From a virus, in IMG/VR virus record IMGVR_UViG_3300028612_002230, positions 1-43,591 of that record: DNA of 43,591 bases. One strand, written 5' to 3'. A program made the translations under genes and the position numbers. Position 1 is the first letter of the stretch, and the number at the start of each line of letters is the position of its first letter. Under the pieces are notes generated by a model that was not told the origin of the DNA, ran no database searches, and saw nothing but the letters and a program-made list of their open reading frames with translations. This document shows, in pieces, positions 6,788 through 19,282 of this stretch.

Positions 6788-9091
6788 TTAAAATCTCCGT
6801 CCCTTTCTTCTATCATTTATCTTAGATCTACTTAGATGCCTAAAACTTCTTTTACTTTCTGAAGCCTTTGACATTCTTTCGTTTGTTTCAAGATCTAAAT
6901 CTGGCGGTTCTCCTCGTAAATAATTACCATGTGCAAAAACAGGCATTCCGTCCTGATAATAAACAGGAACAGGCCCTCTTATATCAGACATTTCTCTTCT
7001 CCATCCCGGTATAGCAGTAGTTAATGGTAAACCTTCTTCAACTAATTCAGCTGATACATCAGATTCTCTTTTTAAGAATATTGAATTATTCATCATCCAC
7101 CCATGCGTTGCCAAAAGAAACGCATCAAGTCTATGGTCTAACCCACCTTTTACTGTTGATGCGTAAACCTCACCAGTTTTTCCAATTCTATCTACTATAT
7201 AACCGCGCATTTGTCCAATTAACCTAGTTTCTTCGTCTTCCATTACAGCTCCAGTTTTATCCACAGCAGGTATAATATATTTTCCAGTTTCGTTTAATAA
7301 TTGAGCATTCTTAACCATAACATTTTTTGTTAAAGATTTGCTGGCTATGCCTGTTACTTTATCTATAATTTCAGTATTACCTCCCATATCTACTGCTGTC
7401 ATTTTATCTATCATATGCTTCAGTCCCGTACACTTGGTACCCATAGGACCTTTTCCTTTTTCTAGGGAAAGTCTTAACTGTTCATAATTTGACTCCCCAT
7501 GACCTTTATCAAAAGCCATATAAGAAAAGCTTATTTTCTTCATCATTTTTAATATAAATTCTACTGCTCCTAAATTAGTATACTCAGCTGACTCAATATT
7601 ATCGGCAAAATATAGTCGTAGTACACCTGATTTAGTAACAGGATCAATTGTTCCTCCACTAGCTACTTCCCACATCCCGGCGTTAAATGGGACTATTAAC
7701 TCCGGGTCCATCAAGTACTCCAAAACTACTGCCTGTACTCCATGTACAGATTCGTTCCAATCTACTCCAAGCATATAATGATTATTAGGATTATATTTTA
7801 AATCTGAATAATTATAAACATACAAATTAGAATCTATATGATTATTTTTAAAAACACCTTCAGCAGGGCTTCCAAATTCTGCTAAATACTCTCTTTCAAA
7901 CTGAGATAATGTTGTTACTGCTTTTATATCCCGTTCCATATCTGAGGTCCATTGCGGACTTAGCATAGACGTATAATGGTGTTCACTATACGACATAGAT
8001 TTGGCATTTTTACTTACCTGATAAAAAAACTCTCTTCTACCTGACGGAGTTCCAGAAACAGTTAATGTAGTATCAGTAAAACTAGTTGAAATAGGTAAAA
8101 CTGCCTCAATTAACATATCATTTGGTATAGAATCTACTTCATCAATATACATATCGTGAGCAGAATTATGAACTAAAAATCCACCAGAATGCACACCACT
8201 AACTTTATATCCTGATTTATTTTCATCAACTTCATTAAATGCTATGAAGTTATGATGTGGAGCAACTGTCATATCATAAGTCTCTGATTTTCCTACTCTT
8301 TTAACTTGTTTAACTCTAGCCCAATATAGCTCTCCAGTTGGATGTACGACTCCAATAAATTCTCCGGTACCGTCCAGTTCAGCTGTTTTTATTTCATTTA
8401 AAGGTGTCCATCCCTTATAGGCTAATGCTAATTTATGATTCTCTGTACATCTAATCTTCCTATCCGTAGTCGTAATAAGTTCATAAATATCCTGAACTCC
8501 ATTCTTATGAATATCAGTTACTTTCCCATAAAACATTTCAGGTTCGCCTTCATCATCTTGTTTAATTGATTTCACAAAATCCCCAACCTTTATCTCTGAA
8601 ATCTGTTTTGCCTCCAAATCCCACATTATAACTCTAGTGTTTCCGGGAAAACATTTACCACGAACAGAATTGTTACCAACAAATCCCATTATAATGGATC
8701 CGTTACTAAATCTAATTTCCCAAGGTCTCATTCGGGTTCGTTCTATGGACAGGGAAACCTCAGGAGAATCTTTTACCATCCTCCCAATCAAATCAAATAT
8801 AGTTTGAATCTGAGAATCAAAGCCTGCTACTAATAAAACTTGCCTATCCGCATTAGTGTATGCTTTCCAAATAGCTTCTATACCAATAACCACCGTTTTA
8901 CCTGTTCTTCTTCCAAGTCTAAGAATTCGTTTAAGACTCATGTCTTTCAATATAGCTCTCTGATAAGGTCTTAGTATTAAAGGTTTAGTCGGATCTGAAG
9001 GAGACCGTAGGTATGCCTCTGCAAAATAAGCAGGATCAGCTAAAAGCTTAGCTTCTATAAGTTCATCTTCTGTTAATTTTAAATTTTGCAC
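6788..9091 (-). CDS. terL: Terminase large subunit interrupted by a mini-intein
   Basis: This is the DNA-packaging motor: an ATPase that docks on the portal and a nuclease that cuts the concatemer. Walker A is GRRTGKT at residues 60-66. Walker B, MYIDEVD, lies at 314-320 in the precursor. The RNase H-like nuclease part shows candidate acidic residues in MLGVDWN, MAFDKGHGE and GLDHRLDAF. A 163-residue intein (147-309) sits just before Walker B; removal leaves about 604 residues, a normal terminase length. The start is GTG at 9091, with AGGAAG upstream. It overlaps by 13 bases the gene for a free-standing intein-like protein. The intein must splice for ATPase function, since it separates Walker A from Walker B. 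Confidence 0.9.
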   Translation of the reverse strand: MQNLKLTEDELIEAKLLADPAYFAEAYLRSPSDPTKPLILRPYQRAILKDMSLKRILRLGRRTGKTVVIGIEAIWKAYTNADRQVLLVAGFDSQIQTIFDLIGRMVKDSPEVSLSIERTRMRPWEIRFSNGSIIMGFVGNNSVRGKCFPGNTRVIMWDLEAKQISEIKVGDFVKSIKQDDEGEPEMFYGKVTDIHKNGVQDIYELITTTDRKIRCTENHKLALAYKGWTPLNEIKTAELDGTGEFIGVVHPTGELYWARVKQVKRVGKSETYDMTVAPHHNFIAFNEVDENKSGYKVSGVHSGGFLVHNSAHDMYIDEVDSIPNDMLIEAVLPISTSFTDTTLTVSGTPSGRREFFYQVSKNAKSMSYSEHHYTSMLSPQWTSDMERDIKAVTTLSQFEREYLAEFGSPAEGVFKNNHIDSNLYVYNYSDLKYNPNNHYMLGVDWNESVHGVQAVVLEYLMDPELIVPFNAGMWEVASGGTIDPVTKSGVLRLYFADNIESAEYTNLGAVEFILKMMKKISFSYMAFDKGHGESNYEQLRLSLEKGKGPMGTKCTGLKHMIDKMTAVDMGGNTEIIDKVTGIASKSLTKNVMVKNAQLLNETGKYIIPAVDKTGAVMEDEETRLIGQMRGYIVDRIGKTGEVYASTVKGGLDHRLDAFLLATHGWMMNNSIFLKRESDVSAELVEEGLPLTTAIPGWRREMSDIRGPVPVYYQDGMPVFAHGNYLRGEPPDLDLETNERMSKASESKRSFRHLSRSKINDRRKGRRF
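8165..8653 (-). other. Mini-intein within terminase (163 residues)
   Basis: The insert begins with Cys (CFPGNTRVIM) and ends VHN before Ser of the C-extein (SAHDMYIDEVD). Block B is seen as RCTENHKL with its conserved His, and block F as SETYDMTVAPHHNFIAFNE. The spliced junction reads VRGK-SAHDMYIDEVD, restoring a continuous terminase sequence. At 163 residues there is no room for a homing endonuclease, so this is a Hint-only mini-intein that cannot spread by itself. Splice residues Cys1, the His of block B, His-Asn at the end and Ser+1 are all present, so it is probably active. Confidence 0.88.
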
Positions 9092-9843
9092 AAAATGCTT
9101 CCTATTAACAAATTATCAATCTCACTTTCTATTTTAATAGCTTCAGTTGATTCTATACGCTCTATAGGCGTTATTACTTCGTGTCTAGTTATCTTATCAG
9201 TAACGTTATTCAAAATCAAACTCCCGCTCTTTACAGAAGATCGATGCCCAAGAACCTTTCCATTAATATCAATTCCTACACGAGAACATAACATAATAAG
9301 AAAATCTTTGCTATCTTCATCCATATGCTTAATACGATTACACTTAGTTAAGTATGTGAAGACTCTGGACAATGATTTATCTGTTAGTTCTGATAAAAAA
9401 TGGGGAAATGTTTGTGTGAAGTACCTATGTTGATTAGGTATAGTGTGTTGCTTAAAAAGAATTGAACTACATAAATAACTTATATCTTTTTTATTAAGCG
9501 TTACCTGTCCAAACACGGGTAGCTTTGTACACACTAATGTTCGTAACCAGTAATGTATTTTTCTGTAATTATCTACAAATGCCGAGCTTAAATCTATAAA
9601 GTGCTTACCTAGTGACCTGATTACTTTTGTATCTTCAGCTACGCTTAGGGTTCTTCCGTGTGATGTAGAGTATTTAAAAAGAGAAGAACACTTAACATTT
9701 GATATTTTAAAGTTATTCGTAGATTTAAATCCAGTAGTAGTTAAATAAAAAAGAGGATGGTCGTTATCTAATTCACCCGCTTTGAGAACTTTACCGCTTT
9801 TATTAATAAGTAACTGATTTTTAGATACAACTATCTGCCCCAC
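9079..9843 (-). CDS. Free-standing degenerate intein-like / LAGLIDADG-type protein
   Basis: The 254 residues read like a complete intein with the splice ends lost. INKSGKVLKAGEL resembles the region after block A, and GRTLSVAEDTKVI resembles block B (usually T-x-x-H; here the His is Thr). FPHFLSELTDKSLSRVF followed by LIMLCSRVGIDING resembles the second half of a LAGLIDADG (DOD) endonuclease. IERIESTEAIKIESEIDN resembles block F, but the end is LCKI rather than HN plus Cys or Ser. There is no N-terminal Cys and no extein. It overlaps bS21 upstream and terminase downstream. A domesticated homing endonuclease serving the neighbouring terminase mini-intein is one idea; a dead relic is another. 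The acidic residues of the endonuclease are not clear. The start is GTG. Confidence 0.5.
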   Translation of the reverse strand: MGQIVVSKNQLLINKSGKVLKAGELDNDHPLFYLTTTGFKSTNNFKISNVKCSSLFKYSTSHGRTLSVAEDTKVIRSLGKHFIDLSSAFVDNYRKIHYWLRTLVCTKLPVFGQVTLNKKDISYLCSSILFKQHTIPNQHRYFTQTFPHFLSELTDKSLSRVFTYLTKCNRIKHMDEDSKDFLIMLCSRVGIDINGKVLGHRSSVKSGSLILNNVTDKITRHEVITPIERIESTEAIKIESEIDNLLIGSILCKI

Positions 9844-10001
9844 GGCTTTCTCTTTCGTACTCTACGGCGTTCACTTGGTTTAACAAAATGCTGTCTTTCA
9901 TATATTTCTAAATCTACACCTTCTATTATATAAGCTTTTTTGAATCTCCTCATTAAAGATTCAAAGGATTCCTTTTTTTTCCTTATAACTATTACAGCCA
10001 T
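9831..10001 (-). CDS. rpsU: Ribosomal protein bS21 homologue
   Basis: The 56-residue product starts MAVIVIRKKKESFESLMRRF and ends in a very basic tail with RRRVRKRK. It matches the bS21 pattern: a short beta start, PFD-like ESFESLMRRFKKA, then a helix with E-I-Y-E-R-x-x-F-x-K-P, then Arg/Lys. Bacterial bS21 is about 70 residues and sits on the small subunit near the anti-Shine-Dalgarno end of 16S rRNA, where it affects initiation. Phage copies of bS21 are known from aquatic phages and could exchange into host ribosomes to favour phage mRNA. GAGG lies 5 bases before the ATG. The stop lies 10 bases past the start of the next gene, so the two overlap. Confidence 0.85.
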   Translation of the reverse strand: MAVIVIRKKKESFESLMRRFKKAYIIEGVDLEIYERQHFVKPSERRRVRKRKPWGR

Positions 10002-11038: not shown

Positions 11039-11802
11039 TATACAGTACTCCTATTTCTAGCTTTATGCATAGCAAAAGGCAAAGCTCCATTCATTCCTAA
11101 ATGACCAGGCTTGCCCATAGGAACAGCACCTCTCATTCTATTTGCCCATAATCTATAGCCCGGTCCCCCAGACTTGACTCTATTAGACATTCTTGCTGCT
11201 CTTCCTTTTGATAGCACATTTTTTCTAGCCTGAATAACTGTTCTTGATACAGCAAGATCTACTTTGGCCATCCCAGTTCCAGCCGCTACGCCTCCTAAAA
11301 GCCCCCCTATAATAGCCCCTGATGTTGCACGTTTTAATCCTCCAAATTTTAAACCAACCAGCCCTCCTAGTAAAACTCCACTTATTCCTCCTATAGTAGC
11401 TGCAGTCTTAACACCGGGCAACTCTTGTGTAGCTTTAAATAAATCTGCTCCCCTAGAAGTTACATACTCAGTTGTGCCTTTCCATGCACCTCCTGTACCG
11501 CTAAGTAAAGATTGTGTAAGGCTCTGGGACTTTCCAAACGCACCGTGCATCGCCCCAACAGCTGCTACTGCTTTTAGACGAGACCAAGTACCTGAAATAC
11601 CTCCTGCTTGTCTTAGGTTTTCTAACTCTTCTCTACTCATAGAACTACCTACCATAGGCATACTAGTTTGTTGTAAAGCAGATGCAGTAAATATACCTCC
11701 TCCAAAGATAGCCATTCCTCCTATAAGTTTACTAGGTCCTGCCGCAGCGCTAAAACCCTGTGCAATCTGTGAAAGTAATCCGGAATCTGGTAATTTAGGC
11801 AT
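11038..11802 (-). CDS. Gly/Ala-rich hydrophobic protein with basic C-terminus
   Basis: A 254-residue protein with two glycine-zipper-like segments: residues 20-40 (GGMAIFGGGIFTASAL) and about 135-175 (GGISGVLLGGLVGLKF, then AIIGGLLGGVAAGTG). The last 70 residues are rich in Arg and Lys. Glycine zippers of this kind occur in proteins that insert in membranes. It overlaps both neighbours by TAATG, so the three genes from 12,596 to 10,004 are probably translated as a coupled set. Function is not recognised; a virion protein active during DNA entry is possible. Confidence 0.5.
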   Translation of the reverse strand: MPKLPDSGLLSQIAQGFSAAAGPSKLIGGMAIFGGGIFTASALQQTSMPMVGSSMSREELENLRQAGGISGTWSRLKAVAAVGAMHGAFGKSQSLTQSLLSGTGGAWKGTTEYVTSRGADLFKATQELPGVKTAATIGGISGVLLGGLVGLKFGGLKRATSGAIIGGLLGGVAAGTGMAKVDLAVSRTVIQARKNVLSKGRAARMSNRVKSGGPGYRLWANRMRGAVPMGKPGHLGMNGALPFAMHKARNRSTV

Positions 11803-12596
11803 TATTTGGTATCCTCAAAGGCTTTGTCAATAGATTGTTGTTCTTCCTGTACACGGTCTTTTTCTCGTGCCTGTATTTCTAAAAATCTTTTCTTAATATC
11901 AGATGCCCTAGTAGACGGATCGTGTGTATCGGTAAGCTTATACTTAGCTCGTTGTTCTCTAGTAGCTAATAACTCTTTTCTAATTAAGGACAATTTTCTA
12001 GTCGATTTATCTTTTATATCTACATAAGGGGTCACTTGATCATTATAGATTATAGTTCCGGTAGCCTGCACAACTGCAGTAGCCACTTCTTTAACATCTC
12101 CTTCTAATGCAATCATTTTATCAGCCCTCCGTTTATCAAGTAATGCAGATGCATATTCTTGTACCATGTTTACTTCTAAATAATTTTCCAAATCTACCCC
12201 AAAATCTGTAATTAATTGAGGTACCATTGAATCTAAGTACATAATTTCTTCTGGACACCTTTCCCCAAGTGGAGCAATTCCCATTTGTTGAAAAACACAG
12301 ATACTTTCAAATTGACACTCCTCCTGCTTACAGATAAGAGGTAAGGTATTATTTACCCCAAAAGTTGAAATCTTAGAGTTCCGTAATAACTTTAATACTT
12401 GCTCCTTAGTTAGCTCAATATCCTCACGTTGCTCTACAGGATACGCACTAAGGATTCGATTAACTTCTGAAGACTCTGGTAATAAACTTAACTTTATTTG
12501 TTCATTGTCTTTTATTTTTTCAAGAGCCTTAGAAACCTCCTCTATCCTAGATATGTCATTCTTTTGCTTTATATCTTTGGTTTTAGCTTCGTCCAT
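11802..12596 (-). CDS. Four-cysteine metal-binding protein, possible small terminase-like protein
   Basis: The 264-residue protein has charged helical ends and a central Cys cluster, C89, C94, C100 and C114, in the pattern CKQEEC, then ESIC, then LGERCPEE. Four Cys so arranged can bind zinc or an iron-sulphur cluster. The part after the cluster, with LLDKRRADKMIALEG and later RKLSLIRKELLATREQR, recalls small phage proteins found upstream of terminases that may act as DNA recognition subunits. That link is from memory of sequence style, not a search. AAGGA lies before the ATG. The C-terminal 60 residues are a likely coiled coil. Confidence 0.4.
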   Translation of the reverse strand: MDEAKTKDIKQKNDISRIEEVSKALEKIKDNEQIKLSLLPESSEVNRILSAYPVEQREDIELTKEQVLKLLRNSKISTFGVNNTLPLICKQEECQFESICVFQQMGIAPLGERCPEEIMYLDSMVPQLITDFGVDLENYLEVNMVQEYASALLDKRRADKMIALEGDVKEVATAVVQATGTIIYNDQVTPYVDIKDKSTRKLSLIRKELLATREQRAKYKLTDTHDPSTRASDIKKRFLEIQAREKDRVQEEQQSIDKAFEDTK

Positions 12597-18508: not shown

Positions 18509-19282
18509 CTAGTGAGTGAAGCGTGCCACTCCATTAGAAGCTTCAGCACCATTAGCCTTTATAGGTACCTTATTAAATGAAGTGTACATATCAAGAATCT
18601 TACCTATCAATGGATGCCTCACAATATCTGCTTTATGAAAAGAACACAGCCCAACTTCCTTAAGAGAAGAAAATCGATGAATACTATCATGTAAACCATT
18701 TTCTCCTTTTTTATCTGTTTGCTCAACATCTCCCATAATAATTATTTTACTATTAATTCCCATTCTAGTTAAGAACATTTTTATTTGGTCCACTGTTGCA
18801 TTTTGTGCTTCATCTAATAATACTATTTTTTTGTCGAAAGTTAATCCTCTCATGTAAGCTAAAGGCATAACTCTAACAGTTTTTTCTTTTAATAAAATAT
18901 CAGAGACAGTTTTTCCTACAATCTGTTCCATATTATAATGAAAACTCATCATAAACGGATCGGTTTTTTCTTCAACATTTCCTGGTAAATATCCTAATTT
19001 TTCACCAGCTGCCTCTATTAGTGGTTTTGTAATTATTATTCCATCATATTTGGAATTCTTTTCACTCAACGCTTTTAATGCATAATAAACTCCAATAAAA
19101 GTTTTACCCGTACCAGCGGGTCCTGAGCAAAAAGTTATATCTTTATCAAGTATACTATCATAAAATTTCTTTTGATTATCTGTTCGAAACTCTACCTCCC
19201 ATTCTTTAGTTTTTAATTGTTTTAGCGCCTGTCTTATATTGGTGCATTGTTTAACTGGTTTGAGTGTACTTGTTTTAGGCAT
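18509..19282 (-). CDS. phoH: PhoH-like ATPase
   Basis: The 257-residue protein carries the PhoH NTPase signature: Walker A as FCSGPAGTGKTFIGV (about residues 52-66), KPLIEAAGEKLGYLPGNVEEK, Walker B as IVLLDEAQNATVDQ, and the sensor-like IIIMGDVEQTD. PhoH proteins are RNA-linked ATPases, common in marine phages; their role in infection is not settled. AGGAG lies upstream of the ATG. A hydrophilic C-terminus of about 30 residues follows the conserved region. Confidence 0.92.
   Translation of the reverse strand: MPKTSTLKPVKQCTNIRQALKQLKTKEWEVEFRTDNQKKFYDSILDKDITFCSGPAGTGKTFIGVYYALKALSEKNSKYDGIIITKPLIEAAGEKLGYLPGNVEEKTDPFMMSFHYNMEQIVGKTVSDILLKEKTVRVMPLAYMRGLTFDKKIVLLDEAQNATVDQIKMFLTRMGINSKIIIMGDVEQTDKKGENGLHDSIHRFSSLKEVGLCSFHKADIVRHPLIGKILDMYTSFNKVPIKANGAEASNGVARFTH

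Follow-up and report, generated by a model that had tools for sequence, protein, structure and literature searches.

The 254 aa protein encoded directly upstream of the large terminase subunit (TerL) gene in the IMG/VR virus record IMGVR_UViG_3300028612_002230 is very probably a free-standing intein-fold protein which is catalytically dead. The window analysed is this virus record, 43,591 bases long. The open reading frame (ORF; 9079–9843, minus strand, GTG start) was present as called by the first-pass annotation of the window. On the minus strand the gene order is ribosomal protein bS21 (9831–10001), the 254 aa ORF and TerL (6788–9091), with bS21 and TerL each sharing a 13 nt overlap with the ORF. 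The ORF product has a predicted intein fold and has lost the catalytic residues of inteins. Its gene occupies one and the same place in 20 viral loci, is inherited vertically and overlaps the start of TerL in a fixed register. TerL itself carries a mini-intein. The features of the locus are the following:

9079..9843, minus strand: standalone intein-fold protein, catalytically dead by sequence; 254 aa, GTG start, stop codon counted
9589..9840, minus strand: Hint N-terminal half of the ORF product, residues 2–85, with degenerate blocks A and B; from profile and hhalign matches and model strands
9262..9525, minus strand: shrunken LAGLIDADG/endonuclease remnant, ORF residues 107–194; boundaries are our reading of the model secondary structure
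9082..9195, minus strand: Hint C-terminal half, ORF residues 217–254, with degenerate blocks F and G; from the model; the last codons double as TerL start signals
9089..9091, minus strand: TerL start codon GTG, within the Leu251/Cys252 codons of the ORF, +2 frame; same register in 20/20 loci
9098..9103, minus strand: AGGAAG, resembling a Shine-Dalgarno sequence for TerL and lying in the ORF's Ile-Gly-Ser codons; assigned by eye, without statistics
6788..9091, minus strand: TerL with mini-intein, 767 aa
8165..8653, minus strand: TerL site-b mini-intein, TerL residues 147–309, 163 aa; Cys1, TxxH, HN and Ser+1 present; no endonuclease
9831..10001, minus strand: ribosomal protein bS21, 56 aa; Pfam Ribosomal_S21 E 4.5e-09, above the gathering score

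Intein ancestry and catalytic residues

The family was represented by alignment A5, with 19 members including the ORF under study. A further locus, L026 (two-piece ORF, broken TerL), was excluded. L016 is a partial row, and L106 and L107 are two residues apart, so that counts out of 19 and 20 include one near copy.

The AlphaFold2 model of the ORF product, built with A5, had a predicted local distance difference test score (pLDDT) of 89.3 and a predicted template modelling score (pTM) of 0.88. It holds both Hint halves and a much shortened endonuclease part. All 50 matches listed by Foldseek against the PDB were inteins or Hint relatives; 10 of them reached E 0.001, with TliVMA (E 6.4e-07) and PhoVMA (E 4.1e-06) at the top. 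The best whole-length match in VIA-align was the PhoVMA intein (PDB 7qst; Z 18.1, root-mean-square deviation (rmsd) 3.8, 230 residues). For the divergent member L021 (pLDDT 82.6, pTM 0.83), Foldseek gave 21 PDB matches at E ≤ 0.001; each was an intein or Hint relative, with Ssp DnaB mini-intein variants at the top and PhoVMA third. From E 2.8 onward its matches were unrelated proteins, except one PI-SceI entry. PhoVMA was again first in VIA-align (Z 17.2, rmsd 3.2, 226 residues). In BFVD, 173 matches reached E 0.001, and among the 50 listed were terminases, helicases and proteins named Hint or homing endonuclease. The Hint horseshoe fold of inteins was thus found in predicted models, and the structure prediction called for by the first-pass annotation returned it twice, each time with a reduced endonuclease insert. 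In the ORF model there is almost no sheet between the presumed LAGLIDADG helices, and much of the DNA-contacting part of the endonuclease seems to be gone. In total length, PhoVMA has 376 aa and TliVMA 429 aa (PMC8966425), compared with 254 aa for the ORF product.

At the sequence level, the ORF protein alone had no significant match in Pfam, PHROGs, NCBIfam, the PDB or the phage collection. The A5 profile, searched against 177,635 PDB sequences, gave nine matches at E ≤ 10, seven inteins and two antibody chains. The best was 7qsu, a VMA intein (E 0.012, two colinear stretches), and none reached E 0.001. The profile search that had been suggested therefore succeeded for the family, with this modest significance, but not for the single protein. 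The hhalign score of A5 was 42.2 with the TerL site-b inteins and 45.5 with a set of ten phage inteins that bear an endonuclease. The controls stayed far lower, at a maximum of 16.6 in 28 decoy comparisons, made with further gene families from these loci, maxima of 20.4 and 16.8 in column shuffles (60 per target), and 11.5 and 14.2 for the reversed alignment. The hhalign signal was confined to about the first 85 ORF residues, the N-terminal third; the C-terminal part alone scored 13.6 and 21.2, with no shuffle control of its own. Beyond the N-terminal third, the intein identity rests on structure, one weak colinear match and these uncontrolled scores. Together, the A5 profile, the controlled hhalign scores and the AlphaFold2/Foldseek results place the intein block order read in the first-pass annotation beyond chance.

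A hidden Markov model (HMM) of the ORF family was run over 6,583 ORFs, and the first matches after the family itself were intein-bearing TerLs (E 0.03, block B region). Scanned singly, the 19 aligned members gave nothing below E 0.07 in Pfam, rSAM_Rv_intein (E 0.021) and intein_Nterm (E 0.036) with one member each in NCBIfam, and a family of unknown function (E 0.0071, one member) in PHROGs. A helix-turn-helix match (PF13022, E 0.12, 1/19 members) was treated as noise. Derivation from one particular TerL intein was not assignable, the hhalign scores to site-b and endonuclease-bearing inteins being alike.

The N-terminal Cys, the block B His and the C-terminal HN, reported as lost in the ORF by the first-pass annotation, were missing family-wide. 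At the Cys1 position (V5 in the ORF, placed by alignment), none of the 18 rows with a letter there had a Cys; a Ser occurred in one row, L017, whose N-terminus is uncertain. The block B His (column 72) was found in 0/19 rows and the Thr of TxxH in 1/19. No row (0/19) had a C-terminal HN followed by an extein, the ORF stopping there. The endonuclease residues, placed by eye, fared similarly. The presumed first LAGLIDADG acid (block C position) was acidic in 3/19 members (Asp in L021 and L023, Glu in L020), and none of the columns 163–169 (block E stretch, second LAGLIDADG acid) was acidic in more than 3/19. As read from these alignment columns, the ORF family is dead both as an intein and as a nuclease. 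The CxxC of the zinc finger in the yeast HO/WHO proteins was absent from the ORF protein, the one member checked, which ends with Hint-C.

Family members and pairing with the TerL intein

Direct scanning of viral contigs with the ORF led no further than two contigs, both 99.99% identical and from the same virus. Relatives were reached via TerL. An alignment of terminase exteins yielded the best 80 of 380 candidate loci, and a second alignment, of the intein-bearing clade, 48 loci, many on contigs already found; one of the two search patterns in this second scan was taken from the intein end, which favours intein-bearing loci. The ORF-family HMM recognized 21 distinct sequences in these loci, two of them pieces of the frameshifted locus L026. 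At the level of loci, the family has 20 members of 239–279 aa, including the window’s own and 19 other IMG/VR loci, with L106 and L107 as near copies. A profile search of genome contigs with the TerL alignment found no relative, and tblastn of the divergent members L021, L013 and L024 against the phage collection gave no match at E ≤ 1.

The ORF stood directly before TerL in each of the 20 loci. It was preceded by a bS21-like ORF in 16/20 (by eye; only the window’s own bS21 was Pfam-tested). None was seen in L021, L023 and L101, and L016 is cut by the contig end. In L021 (4125–6022) and L023 (3426–5329), both from related viruses, the dead-intein ORF adjoins the upstream gene with a 4-nt overlap. 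In L026 (593–1442) the ORF is in two pieces and the TerL of the contig is also broken, with X residues, either by sequencing error or by real decay.

The neighbouring TerL intein has 163 residues and no endonuclease, as the first-pass annotation had stated (Pfam Intein_splicing E 9.9e-11; site SVRGK^C...HN^SAHD). By our reading of the alignment, the presumed Walker B motif has its acidic DE just a few residues past the insertion site. The mini-intein should splice, because Cys1, block B TxxH, the terminal HN and Ser+1 are kept. Among 91 distinct TerL-like ORFs (fragments included), 22 had the site-b intein by pattern, which may miss inteins. The ORF was upstream of 20 of these 22; in L115 and L117, the remaining two, the contig end falls within TerL, where the sequence starts. 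From the other 69 TerL-like ORFs, only three pieces of L026, where the intein is visible but broken up, share a locus with the ORF. This agrees with the earlier description of a free-standing degenerate intein-fold protein beside an intein-bearing terminase, and the pair is stable. As all pairs belong to a single clade, the association could go back to one historical event.

The 22 pattern-detected site-b inteins were all 154–176 aa long, too short to leave room for an endonuclease; the full-length intein at this site that the first-pass annotation proposed to look for in relatives did not turn up. All 22 carry a long stretch from block F to the terminal HN, roughly SGxxVxGxxxGGFLVHN, which is 18 to ~30 residues longer than in the ME3 and KLEB27-3 terminase inteins (+18 versus ME3 for the window’s own). 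Two or more inteins each were present in the TerLs of L029 (4585–8160), L023 (5311–8127), L027 (5026–8610) and L135 (4–4359), some with LAGLIDADG motifs (L029 at the Walker A site, L027 further downstream). In L126 (1582–3129) and L127 (1637–3130), an intein with endonuclease-like motifs lies near the C-terminus of another protein upstream of TerL.

In 20/20 loci the presumed TerL start codon (ATG or GTG) straddles two ORF codons, taking the third base of the upstream codon and bases one and two of the downstream codon. In three loci (L012, L103, L020) another in-frame TerL start is possible, and the start in the common register was taken. The downstream codon of this pair encodes the near-invariant Cys252 (TGC/TGT) in 17 loci and Trp (TGG) in L020, L021 and L024. 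The overlaps range from 13 to 43 nt. Judged by eye, GGAAG or GGGAG precedes the TerL start in 8/20 loci and AGGTAG in 3, and the ribosome-binding sequence is weaker or not evident in the remaining 9/20. The TerL start signals, and not splicing, account for the family's most conserved column and for part of the block G look. Cys252 was accordingly dropped as a candidate functional residue, the TerL start codon lying in it. The block-G-like tail GSILC is at least partly dictated by the same signals. From the fixed overlap of the start codon we infer that the ORF is translationally coupled to TerL.

The ORF is inherited vertically with TerL, not by homing. Across 17 lineages (without L016, L106 and L026), ORF distances correlated with those of TerL, of which only the part downstream of the site-b intein was used (Spearman rho 0.82), and with those of the TerL intein (0.76); no permutation out of 2000 reached either value. 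The ORF, TerL and intein trees share seven close pairs and differ in deeper branches (L004, L014, L101).

Elsewhere in the window, a PhoH-like protein is encoded at 18509–19282 on the minus strand (phrog_170, E 1.3e-67). There were no Rfam families at the gathering score and no tRNA in the window. The small terminase subunit (TerS) was considered as an identity for the ORF; no TerS family was among the matches at E ≤ 1 of the 19 members in Pfam, NCBIfam and PHROGs, searches for which TerS is often too divergent. A weak TerS-like match sits in another gene, at 11802–12596 (Terminase_4, E 0.041, below the cut-off).

Possible functions

The ORF probably originated as an intein, with a Hint splicing domain and a LAGLIDADG endonuclease insert, which turned into a gene of its own in an ancestral virus of the group. 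It would then have lost its splicing and DNA-cutting residues while the protein was retained. Made together with TerL by translational coupling, its product would be a basic accessory protein of the packaging module that neither cuts nor splices, and may contact DNA and/or TerL through the Hint fold and the conserved endonuclease remnant. As a whole, the picture of a domesticated, dead, free-standing intein that is co-made with TerL, and is perhaps a packaging cofactor, falls somewhat short of probable. The role taken separately, that of a non-enzymatic accessory protein of packaging, is more tentative and draws on analogy with HK97, in which an HNH nuclease encoded just upstream of the terminase acts with the terminase at cos (PMC10448857).

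Several properties of the protein fit this proposal. The isoelectric point (pI) exceeded 9 in 16/17 members, compared with 40/139 other ORFs of the same 17 loci; these neighbours were selected for their length and for not overlapping, and may include ORFs that are not genes. The ratio of nonsynonymous to synonymous substitution rates (dN/dS) was 0.056–0.361 for the ORF and 0.026–0.228 for TerL in the same pairs (6/9 pairs giving a ratio), and the ORF looks to be under purifying selection, with dS near saturation. Among five segments compared (L106 excluded), the endonuclease remnant had the highest mean conservation (0.467), with Hint-C at 0.464 and Hint-N at 0.415.

Other points weigh against it. 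The dS was above 1 in all six pairs giving a ratio, which makes the ratios rough, and two further pairs were saturated. In the closest pair, L106/L107, two amino-acid replacements and no silent substitution were counted, not enough for a verdict. The pI of L023 was 6.4. The differences in conservation between segments are small, and the value for Hint-C is inflated by the TerL overlap. The model seems to lack most of the strands with which the endonuclease would contact DNA, and this weakens a DNA-binding role. The binding partner, DNA site and phenotype of the ORF are all putative.

Domestication for a job outside packaging, for example as a repressor of phage or host genes, would suit a basic and fast-evolving protein. 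By the title of one paper, a domesticated endonuclease reportedly tunes phage gene expression. The fixed place directly before TerL and the overlap with it point instead to the packaging genes, and we regard such a job as unlikely.

Slightly less likely is a role mainly in cis, in which the ORF is kept because its translation brings ribosomes to TerL and the protein is dispensable. The TerL start embedded in the ORF in a fixed register, the GGAAG- or GGGAG-like sequence ahead of it in part of the loci, and the faster evolution of the ORF relative to TerL (ORF dN 1.4 to 3.5 times TerL dN in eight pairs) would all be expected. A short leader would suffice for this purpose, however, and here purifying selection and a preserved fold extend over 239–279 aa.

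We give similarly little weight to the dead intein as a trans-acting partner of the TerL intein, binding the TerL precursor or the intein and controlling its folding or splicing like a maturase or regulator. It would account for the ORF upstream of all site-b TerLs but the two cut by a contig end, its absence, apart from the L026 pieces, wherever TerL ORFs lack the site-b intein, the fixed overlap register, and the long block F–G stretch in 22/22 TerL inteins. The retention of an endonuclease-free intein across a clade with a median TerL identity of 43% is itself unexpected. On the other hand, a single clade and perhaps a single event lie behind all pairs, and intein-bearing loci were favoured by the scan pattern taken from the end of the intein. 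ORF distances track the TerL extein no less than the intein, contact of the ORF product with the intein is purely conjectural, and inteins normally splice unaided. In a stronger form, improbable by a little more, the ORF product, made in step with TerL, would bind the TerL precursor, perhaps via the extra block F–G stretch, and gate splicing, so that activation of the packaging motor would depend on it. Such a gate would explain why every clade member examined has an endonuclease-free intein.

The first-pass annotation had suggested a split arrangement, with the splicing domain inside the target gene and the endonuclease encoded separately beside it. In such an intein version of collaborative homing, the ORF would serve the TerL mini-intein in trans as a free-standing homing endonuclease. 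Its intein ancestry, its position next to an intein-bearing gene, the acidic residues of L020, L021 and L023 at the presumed block C position, and the separate homing endonuclease gene (HEG) beside the terL intron of ICP1 (PMC10448857) speak for it. We nevertheless consider the idea, which is not supported, very improbable: the presumed block C position is acidic in just those three members, columns 163–169 do no better, the insert is greatly shortened and inheritance is vertical. Going by sequence, there is no separate active endonuclease to cut an empty site. Nor are there two complementary halves on separate proteins, as in a split intein, the TerL intein being complete and the ORF having both Hint halves.

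That the ORF is an unrelated beta-rich phage protein with chance motifs, as the lack of a significant single-protein library match and the best PDB profile E of just 0.012 might suggest, is scarcely credible when both models match nothing but inteins and Hint relatives in the PDB at Foldseek E ≤ 0.001 (10 and 21 matches), the VIA-align Z scores reach 18.1 and 17.2, and hhalign scores lie far above the decoys.

Comparison with known systems

The route by which inteins turn into useful genes is a standing question. A prominent case is HO/WHO in yeast, in which the nuclease is reportedly the part retained. In the viruses studied here, a protein seems to have outlived the loss of both enzymatic activities, beside and overlapping a gene that still has an intein. 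The conservation of the pair in related viruses suggests that a former selfish element was put to use. If confirmed, the pair would offer a direct system to study what the intein fold does without catalysis, and why an endonuclease-free TerL intein persists across a whole clade. Among the papers listed by our searches of the openly licensed literature, there was no conserved phage family with both activities lost and outside any host protein.

Parts of this arrangement have parallels in other phages. ICP1 also has an endonuclease-less splicing element in terL and a HEG-related neighbour gene (PMC10448857). There the pair is an intron and a T5orf172 HEG; here it is an intein and a dead, vertically inherited intein-fold protein. 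HK97 likewise encodes a HEG-like protein just upstream of its terminase, which is an active HNH nuclease acting with the terminase, whereas the packaging role of the ORF is putative (PMC10448857). Inteins in the TerL ATPase domain are common in phages, mycobacteriophages among them. Those described lie within TerL, two of them have demonstrated endonuclease activity, and the excerpted account does not mention a separate dead copy (PMC5050341). Clades of bS21-encoding phages resemble the window in having bS21 near the large terminase and other structural genes; in those clades it is on the opposite strand from these genes, and here it is on the same strand, overlapping the ORF (PMC9723584).

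Both standalone intein-derived proteins (HO/WHO; PMC7282813) and inteins with dead endonucleases (PhoVMA; PMC8966425) are already known. The PhoVMA intein of Pyrococcus horikoshii (PDB 7qst) shares with the ORF product a Hint fold and a degenerate LAGLIDADG insert, which in PhoVMA has lost its active-site residues and is inactive as an endonuclease (PMC8966425). PhoVMA is still inside its host gene, whereas the ORF stands alone as a gene, lacks the splicing residues and has a far smaller insert. Like HO/WHO, which lack motif G and do not carry out protein splicing, the ORF is a standalone gene with an intein-like region and no exteins (PMC7282813). HO/WHO cut DNA and have a C-terminal zinc finger (PMC7282813), whereas the ORF family is found in phages, has no conserved nuclease acids and, in the ORF protein, has no zinc finger.

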